NCBI GenBank assembly: GCA_030833845.1
Contig: JAURGK010000012.1
Span: 1-64,000 of the forward strand
Direction of reading: 5' to 3'
Length of the DNA stretch: 64,000 nt
Origin: Crocinitomicaceae bacterium
GTDB taxonomy: Bacteria > Bacteroidota > Bacteroidia > Flavobacteriales_D > Crocinitomicaceae
Shown here: one piece after another, positions 28,535-33,400 of the stretch
Position numbering within the stretch: position 1 is the first letter of the stretch
Layout: each line of letters begins with the position of its first letter
The notes under the pieces: generated by a model
Databases searched by the model: none
Seen by the model: only the letters and a program-made list of their open reading frames with translations
Told to the model about the DNA's origin: nothing
Made by a program: the position numbers and the translations under genes

Positions 28535-28606
28535 AATAACATTTTGACTGCAAAATTAGTCGAAATGTCTTACAACTCTGTAAAACTAAATAACAACTTA
28601 TGTTGT

Positions 28607-28939
28607 CTAATCTGAATCATAGCGTTGGTTGCCTGAGGAATCAAAATATGTCGTTCGAATGTGCTTTCCTTGGTTGTATTGAGAAATTGAAGATATAGTT
28701 TCTCCGTCGTTGTGGTAGCTTACAACACGTCCATGCTTGACCCCATTGCTTACCTCAATTTCAAGATTTTTTTTACCGCGTCCTTTTGGAACGATTATTT
28801 TTCCAGTAAAAAGTTGATTTTGATATTTATATCGGCCATTGACTATGGAGCATTCATTGATACAGACTTCTTTTCCTGTATTTAGCACAACATAAATACA
28901 AATCCATGATGAAATAAAAATCATGCTTACCACTCTCAT
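28607..28939 (-). CDS. Small YwqK/MORN-repeat-like exported protein
   Basis: The 110-residue product has a hydrophobic N terminus (VVSMIFISSWICIYVVL), which could be a signal or anchor. Its C-terminal half is of the YwqK/MORN type: LFTGKIIV, then NGVKHGRVVSYHNDGE, then YNQGKHIRTTYFDSSGNQ, with the GxxHGxxxxYxxxG rhythm. In databases such proteins are often labelled antitoxin YwqK, although most occur outside toxin-antitoxin systems. There is no partner toxin adjacent. The gene opens an AT-rich accessory stretch that lasts to about 33.4 kb. Confidence 0.55.
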   Translation of the reverse strand: MRVVSMIFISSWICIYVVLNTGKEVCINECSIVNGRYKYQNQLFTGKIIVPKGRGKKNLEIEVSNGVKHGRVVSYHNDGETISSISQYNQGKHIRTTYFDSSGNQRYDSD

Positions 28940-28984
28940 AGGATCAAATTAGTATTACAAAATTACTGAGCCAGAGCGGTACAT

Positions 28985-29006
28985 TTGATACATTATTGAT
29001 ACATTA
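28985..29006 (+). repeat. Tandem 11-bp direct repeat TTGATACATTA
   Basis: TTGATACATTA occurs twice in immediate succession (28985-28995 and 28996-29006) between the YwqK-like gene and the MarR gene. It is flanked by ACATTT and AAATGT, giving a loose overall symmetry. It is a candidate binding site for a regulator. Confidence 0.55.
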
Positions 29007-29027
29007 AATGTGACTATATTTTCATTG

Positions 29028-29045
29028 ACTCGACAAATGTTGAGT
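29028..29045. promoter_or_regulatory. 18-bp palindrome upstream of the MarR gene (candidate operator)
   Basis: ACTCGACAAATGTTGAGT is an imperfect inverted repeat: seven of nine positions pair by Watson-Crick rules and one is a G-T pair. Size and symmetry fit MarR-family operators. It lies 103 bases before the MarR start, so autoregulation is plausible but unproven. Confidence 0.4.
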
Positions 29046-29147
29046 TACTTAATGAGTTGCTTTACTTTTAACCTTCTATGGCAAGATGTCAAACTTTTTG
29101 GAGAATACGAATCAAATTGTTAAGTTCGTACGGTAGTTTAATAGACA

Positions 29148-29627
29148 ATGGAATATTCTGAAGTGCTCATAAATATTCGAAAGATTATACGCTCCATAAA
29201 TTTGGAAAGTAAGCGCATTGAAAAAGGATATGGCATCAGTATCCCGCAATACCTGTGTCTAAATTTTCTTAGTAGCAACGAGAACTACAGAGCAACAGCA
29301 AAAGCGATAGGAGCCCATCTAAATTTAAACCCCAGCACAGTTAGCGGTATAATTTCAAGACTGGAAAGCAAGGGGTACCTTGCTAAACTACCCAATGCTT
29401 TCGATAAAAGATCAACATACATCTATTTAACGGCTATTGGTGACAAGATTGTACAGTCAATTCCGGATTTGATGCACGAAAAACTTACTAAAAAGCTTAA
29501 ATTGTTATCAGATAAAGATCTAAACGAGCTTCAATCTTCTCTAACACTTTTAATCCGCTTTATGGAAGTAGAAGATGTTGATGCTTCTCCGATCATTACG
29601 CCAGGTGAAAATATTATTGAAAAATAG
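29148..29627 (+). CDS. MarR family transcriptional regulator
   Basis: The 159-residue protein has a MarR winged helix-turn-helix fold. Key segments are SIPQYLCLNFLSSNENYRATAKAIGAHLNLNPSTVSGIISRLESKGYLAKLPNAFDKRSTYIYLT, in which LNPSTVSGIISRLESKG is the recognition helix and DKRSTYIYLT is the wing with the family's conserved D-R pair. MarR proteins are dimeric, usually ligand-responsive repressors of neighbouring or divergent genes. The nearest candidate targets are its own promoter and the decarboxylase/dioxygenase pair about 0.2-1.8 kb downstream. Two candidate operator-like repeats lie upstream of its start. Confidence 0.88.
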   Translation: MEYSEVLINIRKIIRSINLESKRIEKGYGISIPQYLCLNFLSSNENYRATAKAIGAHLNLNPSTVSGIISRLESKGYLAKLPNAFDKRSTYIYLTAIGDKIVQSIPDLMHEKLTKKLKLLSDKDLNELQSSLTLLIRFMEVEDVDASPIITPGENIIEK

Positions 29628-29674
29628 TTTGAGGTTAAGGCCTTGATAATCAGTATTATTAAAGGTTAGATAAA

Positions 29675-29851
29675 GTCCATATTCCTGTTAACCCGATCAA
29701 CAACCAAACTTACTGTCCTGAAGCCAAGTTATCTTCCTCCTACATAAAAAGTCACCGATACTTTATCACGACGCGATGCTGTAATTCCTATGAGGAAAAG
29801 AATAGCTACAAAAAGTCCAAGAACTAAAAATTTTGTGATGTCCGAGGTCAA
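29675..29851 (-). pseudogene. Remnant of a sodium:solute symporter gene
   Basis: Reading on the minus strand directly after the decarboxylase stop (first codon TTG at 29851), 40 codons encode a hydrophobic helix followed by SRRDKVSVTFYVGGR, then a TAA at 29729-29731 and LGF. The pattern (one N-terminal helix, then S-R-R...FYVGGR-x-LGF) is that of the extreme N terminus of the SSS (SLC5-like) sodium:solute symporters. The remaining 450 or so residues are missing; the frame closes again at about 29675 and the MarR gene ends at 29627. Zero spacing to the decarboxylase gene suggests it was once the next gene in that operon. The assignment rests on a short stretch. Confidence 0.5.
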
Positions 29852-31240
29852 TTATTTTTCTAGCGTTTCTTCAAGAAGCAAACTACTGTGCCTTTCTACA
29901 AATCCTTCCAACATTTTGAAAAAATTCAAAATATCCTTCTCGTCATTTTGTGCATTGATTGTTACTAATCGAATGAATTCAACTCCGTCAAAAGACCCGT
30001 AACCTACCAAAAGTTCTGAATGCTCATACAACAGCGTACAGATTTTTCTAGCAGGTATTCCCTTGTAATTGAAACAGATGGAAATAGATTCATCATAACT
30101 ATATAACGTATAATCACCATTCAGTCGAACATATTTTCTTGCCACATCTGCGAGAAAAAACTGATGGTCTACAATTTCTTCCAATCCTTCACTTCCAACA
30201 CTTTTCCATAAGGTCCAGAATTTAAGAGCATCATTTCTTCTACCGCACTGAAGGGAAGTCTTGCCAAGGTTAAATTCATCATGATCAGTCTGGTATAAAT
30301 AATTCGCATCATTTGAGAAAGAGTTATAGAGATGCTTTTTATTTTTTGCAACAATTATAGAACATGAAAGTGGTGTACCTATCATTTTATGCGCATTAAA
30401 ACTGAACGAATCTACAAGTTCCAATCCATCTACAAGGTGTTTATACTTCTCGCTGAAAATAACTGAACCACAATACGCGCCATCTAGATGTAACCACATT
30501 CCATGCCTATCGCAAGTCTCACGAACCGATCGAATTGGATCAAACGCACCAAGTACTGTCGTGCCTGCAGTCAGATTGACCATAATAGGTGCGTGTCCTT
30601 TTTCAACGTCCTCTTGAATCATTTCTTCTAACGCTACCGGATCTATTTTTCCTTCCTTATCACAAGGAACATAACGTACGTTGTTTCTACCAATTCCTGA
30701 GAATGCTGCATTTTTTGGAATACTGTAATGAGATTCTTTTGAAGTGTATACCGTCATACTTTTATTGGCTCCATTATAACGTATTTCCTTATCGAAATGA
30801 TCTCTTGCCAATATCATTGACATGAAATTTGTCATAGAACCTCCTGGAGCAAATGTTCCGTCGGCATTTTTATCCCATCCAATAATGTTGCAAATTTCAC
30901 GAATAACGGTTTTCTCAACCCCAACTTGAGGTCCTGCGGCCTTGTACGTATACATGCTATTATTCAAGACAACGGACAAGAGATCGCCTAAGACGGCTTT
31001 ATCATTTCTTCCTCCAAAAAGCTGATTAAAGAACCTATTTGTAGCGGTTCTTGGTGTTTTCATTAAAAGGTCTTTTAATACCTCTTCTAATTCATCTTCC
31101 GATATTCCACTGCGTTCAAGACGGAGATTAATACGTTCATATAATTCTTCCGAGGGAACAAATTCTGCCATGGGATTATTCAATTCATCGTCAAGCAATT
31201 TCTTGGTAATACGGTCAAAAATTTTCAATGTATTTCGCAT
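29852..31240 (-). CDS. PLP-dependent decarboxylase, cysteine-sulfinate decarboxylase-like
   Basis: The 462-residue protein is a group II amino acid decarboxylase. Visible active-site features are the PLP-bound Lys285 in FNAHKMIG, Asp253 in WLHLDGAY, His171 in TSKESHYSI, and APGGSMTN at 131-138. NRFFNQLFGG closely resembles the same segment in animal CSAD. Phe75 and Ser95 sit 20 residues apart and match the Phe/Ser pair that distinguishes CSAD (cysteine sulfinate or aspartate substrate) from glutamate decarboxylase. It would convert cysteine sulfinate to hypotaurine with release of CO2. A divergent cysteine dioxygenase gene, which makes cysteine sulfinate, lies 165 bases away and supports this reading. 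Aspartate decarboxylation to beta-alanine is the main alternative. Confidence 0.82.
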   Translation of the reverse strand: MRNTLKIFDRITKKLLDDELNNPMAEFVPSEELYERINLRLERSGISEDELEEVLKDLLMKTPRTATNRFFNQLFGGRNDKAVLGDLLSVVLNNSMYTYKAAGPQVGVEKTVIREICNIIGWDKNADGTFAPGGSMTNFMSMILARDHFDKEIRYNGANKSMTVYTSKESHYSIPKNAAFSGIGRNNVRYVPCDKEGKIDPVALEEMIQEDVEKGHAPIMVNLTAGTTVLGAFDPIRSVRETCDRHGMWLHLDGAYCGSVIFSEKYKHLVDGLELVDSFSFNAHKMIGTPLSCSIIVAKNKKHLYNSFSNDANYLYQTDHDEFNLGKTSLQCGRRNDALKFWTLWKSVGSEGLEEIVDHQFFLADVARKYVRLNGDYTLYSYDESISICFNYKGIPARKICTLLYEHSELLVGYGSFDGVEFIRLVTINAQNDEKDILNFFKMLEGFVERHSSLLLEETLEK

Positions 31241-31270
31241 ACAAAATATTTTATTTATTTATTGGTTATT

Positions 31271-31285
31271 GCATTAAATGAATGC
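31271..31285. promoter_or_regulatory. Short inverted repeat GCATT-N5-AATGC
   Basis: GCATTAAATGAATGC, with 5-bp arms and a 5-base spacer, lies 30 bases upstream of the decarboxylase start in the divergent intergenic region. The size fits a dimeric repressor half-site pair, but short inverted repeats are common in AT-rich DNA. Confidence 0.3.
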
Positions 31286-31302
31286 TAAAATTCAAAAATG
31301 CT

Positions 31303-31335
31303 TCAAAAAATACCCATTTTATGAATATTTTTTGA
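31303..31335. promoter_or_regulatory. 10-bp inverted repeat between decarboxylase and dioxygenase genes
   Basis: TCAAAAAATA (31303-31312) and TATTTTTTGA (31326-31335) are perfect inverted copies separated by 13 bases. It sits mid-way in the 165-bp divergent region, where a regulator could control both genes. Confidence 0.45.
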
Positions 31336-31365
31336 CTATTTTTATAATAATTAATTAGCACAGTA

Positions 31366-31373
31366 CAAAGTTA
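31366..31373 (-). promoter_or_regulatory. -7 box (TAACTTTG) for the decarboxylase gene
   Basis: On the minus strand TAACTTTG matches TAnnTTTG, with TTTC 19 bases upstream as a weak -33 box. This would give a leader of about 120 nt carrying both inverted repeats, a place where a repressor could block elongation or initiation. Confidence 0.4.
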
Positions 31374-31405
31374 ATACTATTTATTTTCTATAGAAATTAT
31401 ATTAA

Positions 31406-31942
31406 ATGCCTACTATCAAAACCATTATAGAATTGATTGAAACTTTCGAAAACGTAGAACCGTCTGAACAGGTAGGTGTTTTAAAAAGTATAGACATTCC
31501 AAGGAAAGAATTTGAGGCATTTGCAACATGGAAAGAAGGAGGTTATACGAGAAATTGTATTGTGCGACATGAAAAGTTTGAATTAATCTTACTTTGTTGG
31601 GACACAGGTGTCAAAACTCCTATTCATGGGCATGACGGACAGAATTGTTGGGTTTATCTAATATCTGGAACTATTTCAGAAAAGCGCTTCAAACAAAAGC
31701 ATCATGGATTTGAGTTAACTAACGACGCGACTCTAGAGGCAGGTAGCATATCATACATGCATGACCGTATGGGTTTCCATACCCTCGAAAACGTATCCAG
31801 CGGTTTATCTATGACGCTTCATGTTTATGCGCACCCAATTGATATATGCGAAGTTTACAATGAAAAGATCGGAAGTTTCGAAACCGTCAAAATGGTATAT
31901 GACTCAACTGCAGAAATTAAGGATGTTACCCAAATCAGTTGA
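31406..31942 (+). CDS. Cysteine dioxygenase (eukaryote-like active site)
   Basis: Non-heme iron enzyme that oxidises cysteine to cysteine sulfinate with O2. The 178-residue cupin carries the substrate-binding Arg49 in GGYTRN, the iron ligands His74 and His76 (PIHGH) and His125 (MGFHTLEN), and Tyr141 in LHVYAHP. Cys81, in NCWVYLISG, occupies the place of the animal Cys93 that cross-links to Tyr157. Most bacterial CDOs have Gly there. The second motif residue differs from animals (IHGH, not IHDH). The pairing with a CSAD-like decarboxylase on the other strand predicts hypotaurine formation. No taurine dehydrogenase or sulfoacetaldehyde gene is near, so the product is probably made, not degraded. 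Confidence 0.88.
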   Translation: MPTIKTIIELIETFENVEPSEQVGVLKSIDIPRKEFEAFATWKEGGYTRNCIVRHEKFELILLCWDTGVKTPIHGHDGQNCWVYLISGTISEKRFKQKHHGFELTNDATLEAGSISYMHDRMGFHTLENVSSGLSMTLHVYAHPIDICEVYNEKIGSFETVKMVYDSTAEIKDVTQIS

Positions 31943-32065
31943 TAAATTAAACCTTATGCTCTTTATCATCAATGAAATAAATTAAATGCCTGAAACTGAT
32001 AACAAAAACAGAAAGAGAGAAAAAAAGTGCAAAGAAGAAGCTAAAACATTTAAGGTGTGAAGAAA

Positions 32066-32314
32066 AAAAAGAAAAACTTTGACTCATTCTTTAAGCACTT
32101 TGAATTAATTGCCGAAAATCCATATTAATTCGAGTCTGTAGAATTTATCAAACCCAGTTATCGCCGCTGTATTTGCGGCGTTAATAGTATCTTCTTTTGA
32201 ATAGATAAAGATGAAGTGGAAATAATGATAATCATAGGTAGACAAGATCTTTGGAAATTGCTGCAAGATTTGGCGCTATTCATCCACGTACAATTATTGA
32301 GTAAGATTCTTTGA
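32066..32314 (+). pseudogene. Decayed ParE/RelE-type toxin gene
   Basis: One plus-strand frame encodes FFKHFELIAENPY, a stop at 32126-32128, FESVEFIKPSYRRCICGVNS and IFF, a stop at 32198-32200, then IDKDEVEIMIIIGRQDL. This is the C-terminal half of a ParE-family toxin (ENP...EFI.P.YRR...G.NSIF..IDKD.VEIM.IIGRQD), interrupted by TAA and TGA and lacking a recognisable N terminus. The match continues with 20 or so unrelated codons to a TGA at 32312. It lies between the dioxygenase gene and a live toxin-antitoxin pair in an otherwise gene-free stretch (31943-32497). No matching antitoxin gene is visible upstream. Confidence 0.6.
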
Positions 32315-32344
32315 CGCGAATGAGCAGATGTAATTCGCAACTCA

Positions 32345-32400
32345 ATAAAAAAAACCAACACAATTGTGATGGGTTTTTTCTTTGTGACCTAAGGGGTCGA
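32345..32400 (-). repeat. Degenerate tRNA-Arg 3' end plus terminator (copy 3)
   Basis: The plus strand reads AACCAACAC-aatt-GTGATGGGTT followed by TTTGTGACCTaagGGGTCG. The same order (imperfect hairpin with T-run, then TTGTGACCT) is found at the true tRNA-Arg 3' end (33291-33342) and at copy 2. It is strongly diverged after GTGACCT. It lies just outside the 5' side of the toxin-antitoxin genes. Confidence 0.45.
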
Positions 32401-32497
32401 GAAATCTAACTTTTATGGGGATTTGGAGGGGGTGGAGGATATCATGACATTTGGATTTACTCAACTGAATTATTAATTTAGTAGAAATAAAAAAGTC

Positions 32498-32740
32498 ATG
32501 GCCCAAGTCGATGTAATTAGAAATGGAATTATTGACAGACTGCTTGCTATCTCAGATAAAGATTATTTGATGGCTCTGCTTCGTTTGGTAGATAATAGTA
32601 CAGTTGAAATTGGAAAAATTCAATTGACTAAAGAGCAAAAGTTGATGCTCGAAATGAGTGAAGCAGACCTTCAAAATGGTCGAACTATATCTCAAACTGA
32701 GCTTGACAAAAACGACCTTGAATGGCTAAAAGGACAATAG
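32498..32740 (+). CDS. Type II antitoxin
   Basis: The 80-residue acidic protein precedes and overlaps the toxin gene by 19 bases, the usual arrangement for type II toxin-antitoxin operons. Its middle, IGKIQLTKEQKLMLEMSEADLQNGRTISQTEL, resembles the toxin-wrapping C-terminal part of antitoxins found with ParE/RelE toxins in Bacteroidota (addiction-module component type). The N terminus has no clear DNA-binding motif. It should neutralise the toxin encoded next to it. Confidence 0.75.
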   Translation: MAQVDVIRNGIIDRLLAISDKDYLMALLRLVDNSTVEIGKIQLTKEQKLMLEMSEADLQNGRTISQTELDKNDLEWLKGQ

Positions 32741-33027
32741 TCTGGACAGATACCGCTGCCAAACAGCGTCGACAAATATTGAAATATTGGACAGAGAGAA
32801 ATCAAAGCACAGCATTTGCTGAAAAGTTAATTGAGGTTACCGCAAAGCATCGAAAAGTCATCTTAAAAAATCCTGAAGCATTTAAGGAAACGGAATTTGA
32901 TAGCTTGCGAGAATCTGCCATGGGCCATTTTAGTTTGTATTATAAAATCACTGAAACTCAAATAATCGTTATGGCATTCTGGGATAATCGTCAAGATCCT
33001 AAGAAATTATTGAAGGAGATCTCTTAA
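32722..33027 (+). CDS. RelE/ParE family toxin
   Basis: The 101-residue basic protein has the RelE/ParE fold signs: TIVWTDTAAKQRRQILKYWTERN at the N terminus, FDSLRESAMGHFSLYYKITETQIIVMAFWDNRQDPKKL at the C terminus. The last block, with the terminal DNRQDP, is typical of this Bacteroidota subgroup. The start lies inside the antitoxin gene, which suggests translational coupling. RelE members cleave mRNA on the ribosome, whereas ParE members poison gyrase; which applies here cannot be said. Confidence 0.82.
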   Translation: MAKRTIVWTDTAAKQRRQILKYWTERNQSTAFAEKLIEVTAKHRKVILKNPEAFKETEFDSLRESAMGHFSLYYKITETQIIVMAFWDNRQDPKKLLKEIS

Positions 33028-33121
33028 TTTTTGTTTGAACTCCAATTTATTTATCCTCGAATTCAAGTCTTAACAATATGATTTATATTTCCCGCCAAAA
33101 CAATTTTAACAATATAAAACC

Positions 33122-33174
33122 AAAAAACCCAACACTTTCGTGCTGGGTTTTTTGGTTGTGACCTCGTCAGGATT
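33122..33174 (-). repeat. Terminator plus tRNA-Arg 3' remnant (copy 2)
   Basis: AAAAAACCCAACAC-tttc-GTGCTGGGTTTTTT (33122-33153) is a hairpin with A/T tracts. It is followed by TTGTGACCTCGTCAGGATT, which is identical to the 3' end of the tRNA-Arg gene (reverse complement) to position 33174, then diverges. It is a second, truncated copy of the tRNA 3' end and its terminator, about 150 bp from the true gene. Confidence 0.8.
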
Positions 33175-33290
33175 TCAGATCCTCTCGTATTTGTTCAATC
33201 CAAGCATAGAAACCCTAGCCTTGCTGCGCAGTTCTCGGTTTTTTTCTTTTTACTTGCTTATCAAAACGAGTTTTGAACGCTGTAAAAACA

Positions 33291-33320
33291 AAAAACCCGG
33301 CACATTCGTGCTGGGTTTTT
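33291..33320 (-). terminator. Intrinsic terminator of tRNA-Arg
   Basis: On the minus strand the transcript forms AACCCAGCAC-GAAT-GTGCCGGGTT with a single A-C mismatch, followed by a run of U. It begins six bases after the tRNA discriminator base. A near copy lies at 33122-33153. Confidence 0.75.
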
Positions 33321-33326
33321 CGCTTG

Positions 33327-33400
33327 TGACCTCGTCAGGATTCAAACCTGAAACCTTCAGAGCCGTAATCTGATGCTCTATTCAGTTGAGCTACGAGGCC
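33327..33400 (-). tRNA. tRNA-Arg (anticodon ACG)
   Basis: The minus strand folds as a 74-nt cloverleaf. The acceptor GGCCTCG pairs with CGAGGTC (one G-T pair), the D arm starts TAGCTCAAC, the anticodon stem is TCAGA/TCTGA with loop TTACGGC giving anticodon ACG, and the T arm holds GGTTTGAATCC. A34 would be deaminated to inosine by TadA. CCA is not encoded. Promoter and terminator are both visible on the minus strand. Two partial copies of its 3' end lie downstream, which marks it as an integration target. Confidence 0.93.

Follow-up and report, generated by a model that had tools for sequence, protein, structure and literature searches.

A divergent cysteine dioxygenase and CSAD-like decarboxylase pair in a Crocinitomicaceae genome: a probable hypotaurine-making module with a MarR-linked candidate operator

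Introduction

Among the organic sulfur and nitrogen compounds of the sea, taurine is abundant. Animals oxidise hypotaurine to taurine by FMO. Among bacteria, Agnello et al. reportedly described in 2013 a taurine pathway in Synechococcus sp. PCC 7335 that combines cysteine dioxygenase (CDO) with cysteine sulfinate decarboxylase (CSAD), and three active-site positions (the triad) are said in the same work to set substrate choice. The decarboxylase of this organism is reportedly a CSAD-type enzyme with F/S/Y at these positions, its gene linked to that of CDO.

The 2013 study is cited in both PMC8153620, where it is the source given for three active-site positions, and PMC12585060. The CDO-CSAD pathway is already known in bacteria, including marine flavobacteria: the introduction of PMC12585060 names these among the organisms making taurine via L-cysteine. 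A preliminary description of the present locus knew of no described system of this kind in the phylum, which this statement corrects.

Here we analyse a 64,000-nt stretch of DNA (the window) from a Crocinitomicaceae genome of 2.14 Mb in 44 contigs. In common with the reported Synechococcus sp. PCC 7335 system, the window combines an F/S/Y decarboxylase gene with a linked CDO gene; here the two genes diverge and are accompanied by a candidate operator, a MarR gene and a decayed symporter. With animal CDO1 and CSAD it would share two reactions, and it keeps the Cys93-Tyr157 pair and the F/S/Y triad, whereas identity is only about 29% to mouse CDO1 and 37% to human CSAD and 47 bacterial decarboxylases form a group of their own.

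Results

Layout of the locus

The CDO and decarboxylase reading frames proposed in the preliminary description are both intact and diverge across a gap of 165 nt (Table 1), matching PF05995 (2.1e-20) and PF00282 (3.1e-73), respectively. The MarR gene reported beside them is also real and is transcribed toward the decarboxylase gene, with the symporter remnant lying between the two. A 110-aa open reading frame with a DUF2963 match (28607-28939) is found inside the inserted segment.

Table 1. Features of the locus (window coordinates).
Feature	Position	Strand	Basis
CDO, PF05995, 178 aa	31406..31942	+	ORF and Pfam profile match
CSAD-like PLP decarboxylase, PF00282, 462 aa	29852..31240	-	ORF and Pfam profile match
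MarR-family regulator, 159 aa	29148..29627	+	ORF; PF12802/PF01047 matches
PutP-like sodium symporter remnant, N-terminal ~70 codons, internal stops	29662..29842	-	match to L021 symporter
Candidate operator TTTCTATAGAAAATAAAT	31379..31396	-	contains palindrome 31385-31396; MarR binding inferred
TAACTTTG, candidate -7 element of decarboxylase gene	31366..31373	-	inference from sequence
Module-bearing segment without DNA match in four nearest relatives compared	28560..32365	.	genome comparison
tRNA-Arg(acg), boundary of variable slot	33326..33400	-	
Three hairpin + tRNA-Arg 3'-end copies (all or part)	32348-32390, 33122-33174, 33290-33342	.	within 32348..33342

The dioxygenase resembles animal CDO1

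The window CDO scored 73.4 bits against a cut-off of 23 for the type I family. Its closest solved structures were mammalian CDO1 (9.7e-21), with Bacillus subtilis 3eqe far behind (3.5e-6), and alignment with mouse CDO1 (2atf) gave 46 identities in 156 columns (29%). A structure search with the predicted model (pLDDT 92) likewise returned 23 mammalian CDO entries first, followed by 3-mercaptopropionate dioxygenases and B. subtilis CDO. The three-histidine iron site (H74, H76 and H125) was invariant across 19 sequences, and R49 aligned with R60 of the mouse enzyme, the position at which arginine marks Arg-type, cysteine-specific CDOs. The enzyme is predicted to oxidise L-cysteine to cysteine sulfinate.

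In rodent numbering, R60, H86, H88, C93, H140, H155 and Y157 were kept in the window CDO and in 38 of 38 CDO rows (a set that includes five duplicate loci and two nearly identical ones, L067 and L068); the residue at P159 was not kept. Since Cys93 and Tyr157, which are Cys81 and Tyr141 in the window CDO, are present throughout this clade, its CDOs can probably form the animal-type Cys-Tyr crosslink. The cysteine of this pair is absent from many bacterial CDOs, according to a review (PMC4019311).

The decarboxylase carries the CSAD triad

Among solved structures the window decarboxylase matched CSAD and GADL1 best: bit scores were 278 for human CSAD, 276 for GADL1, 275 for mouse CSAD and 253 for GAD1, and identity was 36.8% to human CSAD, 36.8% to GADL1 and 36.1% to GAD1. 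F75, S95 and Y97 follow the pattern F-x19-S-x-Y; Phe75 and Ser95 had already been recognised as CSAD-distinguishing, and Y97 completes the triad. The window thus reads F/S/Y, as does human CSAD, compared with Y/S/Y in GADL1 and S/N/F in GAD1. A glutamate decarboxylase identity was discarded, the GAD1 triad being absent. At the level of sequence, overall identity does not split CSAD from GADL1 and the triad does; because identities to CSAD, GADL1 and GAD1 are nearly equal, the predicted substrate depends on these three residues together with the CDO neighbour.

The predicted active lysine, K285 in an NAHK motif, was invariant across 23 sequences. Structure comparison showed that the predicted fold agrees with CSAD/GADL1-type enzymes; the AlphaFold monomer model gives no reliable picture of the triad itself, with pLDDT <50 over residues 65-105.

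A tree of 61 rows (omitting the duplicate or partial loci L001-L006, L046, L049, L056, L058 and L062, and taking only 11 chosen rows of weaker decarboxylases) placed 47 bacterial rows in one fully supported group, separate from the animal enzymes. Within it L021 and L022 grouped with the window enzyme at moderate support (87/86). Human CSAD, GADL1 and GAD1 clustered with each other and the bacterial clade fell outside all three, through a weak join (85/45) with long branches flagged; we therefore make no claim on inter-kingdom transfer. Five further bacterial FSY rows without CDO (L008-L011 and L069) fell outside both the bacterial group and the animal enzymes.

CDO and decarboxylase genes are recurrently linked

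A search for the pair across Bacteroidota had been proposed in the preliminary description. When 395 genomes were sampled, PF05995 exceeded its cut-off in eight, and in six of these eight (G000, G088, G110, G145, G369 and G412) a PF00282 gene lay directly beside the CDO gene by coordinates. G265, with a CDO over the cut-off, lacked any PF00282 match; the CDO of G096 is a weak match in a 566-aa frame and was not counted among the adjacent cases. Sequences were taken from 60 PF00282 places in the mid score range, including five CDO-adjacent ones outside the window, and the triad was scorable in 59. FSY was found in 5/5 CDO-adjacent decarboxylases versus 2/54 others (Fisher 4e-6), with YSY in one of the 54 that lack a CDO neighbour.

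The scan of named genomes gave 43 decarboxylase loci, 38 of them FSY (27 with CDO in view and 11 without); the remainder comprised three FSA loci without CDO and two cut at the triad. The two reading frames were no more than 175 nt apart in 27 of the 43 related loci. Where at least 900 nt was visible on both sides, 24 of 34 close decarboxylase relatives had a CDO: 21 loci had CDO and symporter, three CDO only, ten neither and none the symporter only (Fisher 2e-6). The 21 include L027, which has two symporter ends only. Five same-genus carriers of the decarboxylase contain DNA identical to that of named contigs (L002/L026, L003/L055, L004/L028, L005/L030 and L006/L029; at most 2 kb compared each). 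The pairing is not due to chance, because six of eight CDO genomes and 24 of 34 close relatives show it.

Conversely, the FSY triad does not require CDO. None was present in the visible DNA of the 11 close FSY relatives lacking it (for L034 and L057, <900 nt upstream), none lay within about 1.5 kb of the distant FSY decarboxylases L008-L011, and PF05995 had no match in the whole genomes G166 and G283, which encode the FSY decarboxylases L069 and L081. Seven FSY loci have both flanks visible and no CDO (L030, L038, L039, L044, L047, L051 and L061); L038, L039 and L061, with L043 and L057, have another conserved neighbourhood in common (gene clusters c7-c14). In the alphaproteobacterial loci L048, L053 and L059, and in L007 from the order of the window organism, the triad tyrosine is replaced by alanine (FSA, FTA) with no CDO in view, and a substrate change in these CSAD-like enzymes is possible.

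These results bear on whether the window enzyme might mainly be an aspartate (GADL1-like) decarboxylase making beta-alanine, beside a CDO that serves independently in cysteine disposal. Such a role would fit its equal identity to GADL1 and CSAD, the FSY relatives in genomes without any CDO match, and the slow decarboxylation of aspartate by human CSAD stated in PMC8153620. It is nonetheless improbable: the first triad position holds the F of CSAD and not the Y of GADL1, the linkage to CDO recurs, and panD is present in the genome, so that the decarboxylase is not needed as an aspartate decarboxylase. Beta-alanine supply as its main role was rejected on the presence of panD.

A conserved box tracks the MarR gene

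The palindrome TTTCTATAGAAA lies ahead of the CDO gene, 10-21 nt from its start. For the decarboxylase gene a candidate -7 element was located (Table 1), the flavobacterial -7 consensus being TAnnTTTG. The sequence TTTCTAnnGAAARTAAAT, or a close variant, was found just upstream of CDO in the window and in L021, L022, L032 and L054, the last four of which have MarR downstream of the symporter. L049 and L052, on contigs that end short of the MarR position, hold the same box upstream of CDO.

The box was first spotted by eye; only then were 29 genomes searched for MarR. An orthologue (64-79% identity) was detected in seven of the 29 (L021, L022, L023, L024, L032, L049 and L054), not counting a weak match in L051 (7e-4). 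Under the rule TTTYnnnnGAAA no more than 45 nt upstream of CDO, fixed after the sequences had been seen, the box was present in 7/7 MarR genomes versus 1/20 others (27 scored loci; Fisher 9e-6), with 0.24 matches expected by chance over all 27. These counts exclude the duplicates L001-L004 and L006, and L030 and L034 are also outside the 27. The single box without MarR is that of L052, from a genome of 1.4 Mb that is probably incomplete. A stricter form, GAAARTAAAT, gave 5/7 versus 1/20 (p 0.0014). The counts are less than fully independent, since the genomes may have both box and MarR from a common ancestor.

No MarR match was found in the L023 and L024 loci, the former ending about 0.3 kb past the symporter; these two (with L180 and L178) have the orthologue elsewhere in the genome and keep a variant box upstream of CDO. 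None of five sequences inspected by eye showed the box pattern ahead of the MarR gene itself. The earlier suggestion that the module is regulated gains support from these data, and the pair may be controlled through MarR and the box.

The symporter partner has been lost

The transporter described as broken in the preliminary account is indeed so: the remnant matches residues 2-46 (64%) and 51-71 (62%) of the 514-aa SSF symporter of L021 and contains a frame change besides in-frame stops. No match to the remainder of the gene was found at the locus, and elsewhere in the genome only a 25% paralogue matches. In the window genome the symporter is thus lost and both enzymes are intact. The intact L021 protein resembles PutP/SSF sodium-solute symporters in matching TIGR02121 (353 bits) and PF00474 (267 bits), and differs from them in falling below the PutP equivalog cut-off (515.5) and in its linkage to CDO-CSAD. 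Of the five pairs from the phylum sample, L067 and L068 are accompanied by a symporter at 69-70% identity, with no match within the 10 kb fetched for the other three. A second loss with CDO and CSAD both kept was found in Aureispira sp. CCB-QB1 (L027:7480-7985), where some 60 residues of the N-terminus and 100 of the C-terminus are left.

The module occupies a variable slot beside tRNA-Arg

By CTP synthase, the nearest relatives among 32 genomes searched are G021 (94%), G011 (93%), G019 (93%) and G008 (90%), and none of the four has a decarboxylase match. A full match was present in five of 36 other same-genus genomes, carriers that are 80% identical by CTP synthase. In all four nearest relatives, homology to the window breaks off shortly upstream of the nitroreductase gene, at position 28559; it resumes at a ParE-like pair in G019 and at or near tRNA-Arg in G021 and G008, and the G011 contig ends before it could resume. 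The gene found between the flanks in G019 encodes 905 aa and matches GH38 weakly, below the cut-off; G021, G008 and G011 have DNA homologous to it. Since close relatives share the left flank and have different cargo adjoining it, the module occupies a slot of variable content beside tRNA-Arg.

At 35.0% G+C, the segment 28560-32347 lies below the average of equally long stretches (40.2%, sd 1.4): of 302 such overlapping stretches, 301 are richer in G+C. Intergenic A+T contributes to the difference, and the L021 decarboxylase gene itself has only 39%. At 32348-33342 the hairpins of the three repeats are terminator-like; the first copy, which has a shorter tRNA part, is separated from the second by a ParE-like toxin gene with its small partner. 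The repeats resemble what integration at tRNA-Arg would leave behind. Among the genes scanned with Pfam there was no integrase.

Identity to L021 was 77% for CSAD, 60% for CDO, 79% for CTP synthase and 76% for nitroreductase. Divergence was compared as change counts, NG86 dS not being computable in any of 12 pairs, and changes on the window side versus the other side numbered 48:24, 29:14, 53:26 and 28:9, respectively. As module divergence and change ratios resemble those of host genes, an old gain, or gain from an unsampled donor, is favoured over a recent one; recent transfer from the L021/L022 lineage was rejected on the same ground. The module may also have been lost repeatedly in relatives. 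Of the earlier proposal that it was perhaps transferred, the variable slot and the absence of a match in the nearest relatives support the general idea, and recency is not indicated.

The same counts address the possibility that the module is decaying and non-functional in the window genome. The symporter remnant with its stops, the 25% paralogue as its only match elsewhere, and a CDO more diverged than the other three genes compared would agree with decay. Against this, the CDO, decarboxylase and MarR frames are open with key residues present, the roughly twofold excess of window-side changes affects the module and two host genes alike, without module-specific relaxation, and Aureispira L027 retained CDO and CSAD beside a broken symporter. 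A non-functional module is therefore unlikely, and recent decay of the enzymes was rejected, there being no module-specific rate increase.

Discussion

The locus is very probably a hypotaurine-making CDO-CSAD module, with putative MarR control and a decayed symporter, in a slot bounded by tRNA-Arg. CDO would oxidise L-cysteine, and the resulting cysteine sulfinate would be decarboxylated by the divergent enzyme to hypotaurine and CO2. Hypotaurine might serve as a compatible solute or antioxidant, or speculatively be turned into taurine by another enzyme or by chemistry. MarR would bind the palindromic box between the two genes and control both, and the PutP-like sodium symporter, usually encoded downstream, probably imports substrate or recaptures product. 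The module was probably gained in the slot in place of older cargo, and not recently from a sampled donor.

The preliminary description had proposed a hypotaurine/taurine module. Its cysteine-to-hypotaurine reading is supported by the full triad, the CDO residues, the recurrent linkage and the presence of panD. The taurine step is not: the window genome (94.7% complete) has no match to FMO (PF00743), the animal-type enzyme, and none to the TauD family. Judged from the genes, hypotaurine is the safest product to name. That the pathway instead serves cysteine detoxification or sulfur release, with cysteine sulfinate going to pyruvate and sulfite and decarboxylation a side route, is very unlikely, as the conserved partner is a decarboxylase with its frame within 175 nt of CDO in 27 of 43 related loci, even though the CDO product can enter the pyruvate/sulfite route (PMC4019311).

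A broader proposal has about an even chance of being right: a dedicated MarR-type regulon for hypotaurine synthesis, in which a single palindrome, TTTYnnnnGAAA, in the CDO-CSAD gap acts as operator for both genes, in Crocinitomicaceae-like as well as Flavobacteriaceae genomes. It would belong to an exchangeable make-and-recapture cassette of CDO, CSAD and sodium symporter, and the CDO would form a Cys-Tyr cofactor of the animal type. In the open-licence literature searched, we found no MarR or symporter tied to a CDO-CSAD module, and no account of the CDO-CSAD-symporter cassette, the MarR-tracking box, a clade of CDOs all keeping Cys-Tyr, or the tRNA-Arg slot; on a MarR-taurine link or bacterial taurine as an osmolyte, the matches listed held nothing on the present system.

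CDOs that retain a cysteine absent from many bacterial CDOs should be useful for dating the origin of the Cys-Tyr cofactor. The module offers a candidate operator, regulator and likely transporter partner of hypotaurine synthesis, and represents a concrete set of genes for a bacterial source of (hypo)taurine in marine-type Bacteroidota.
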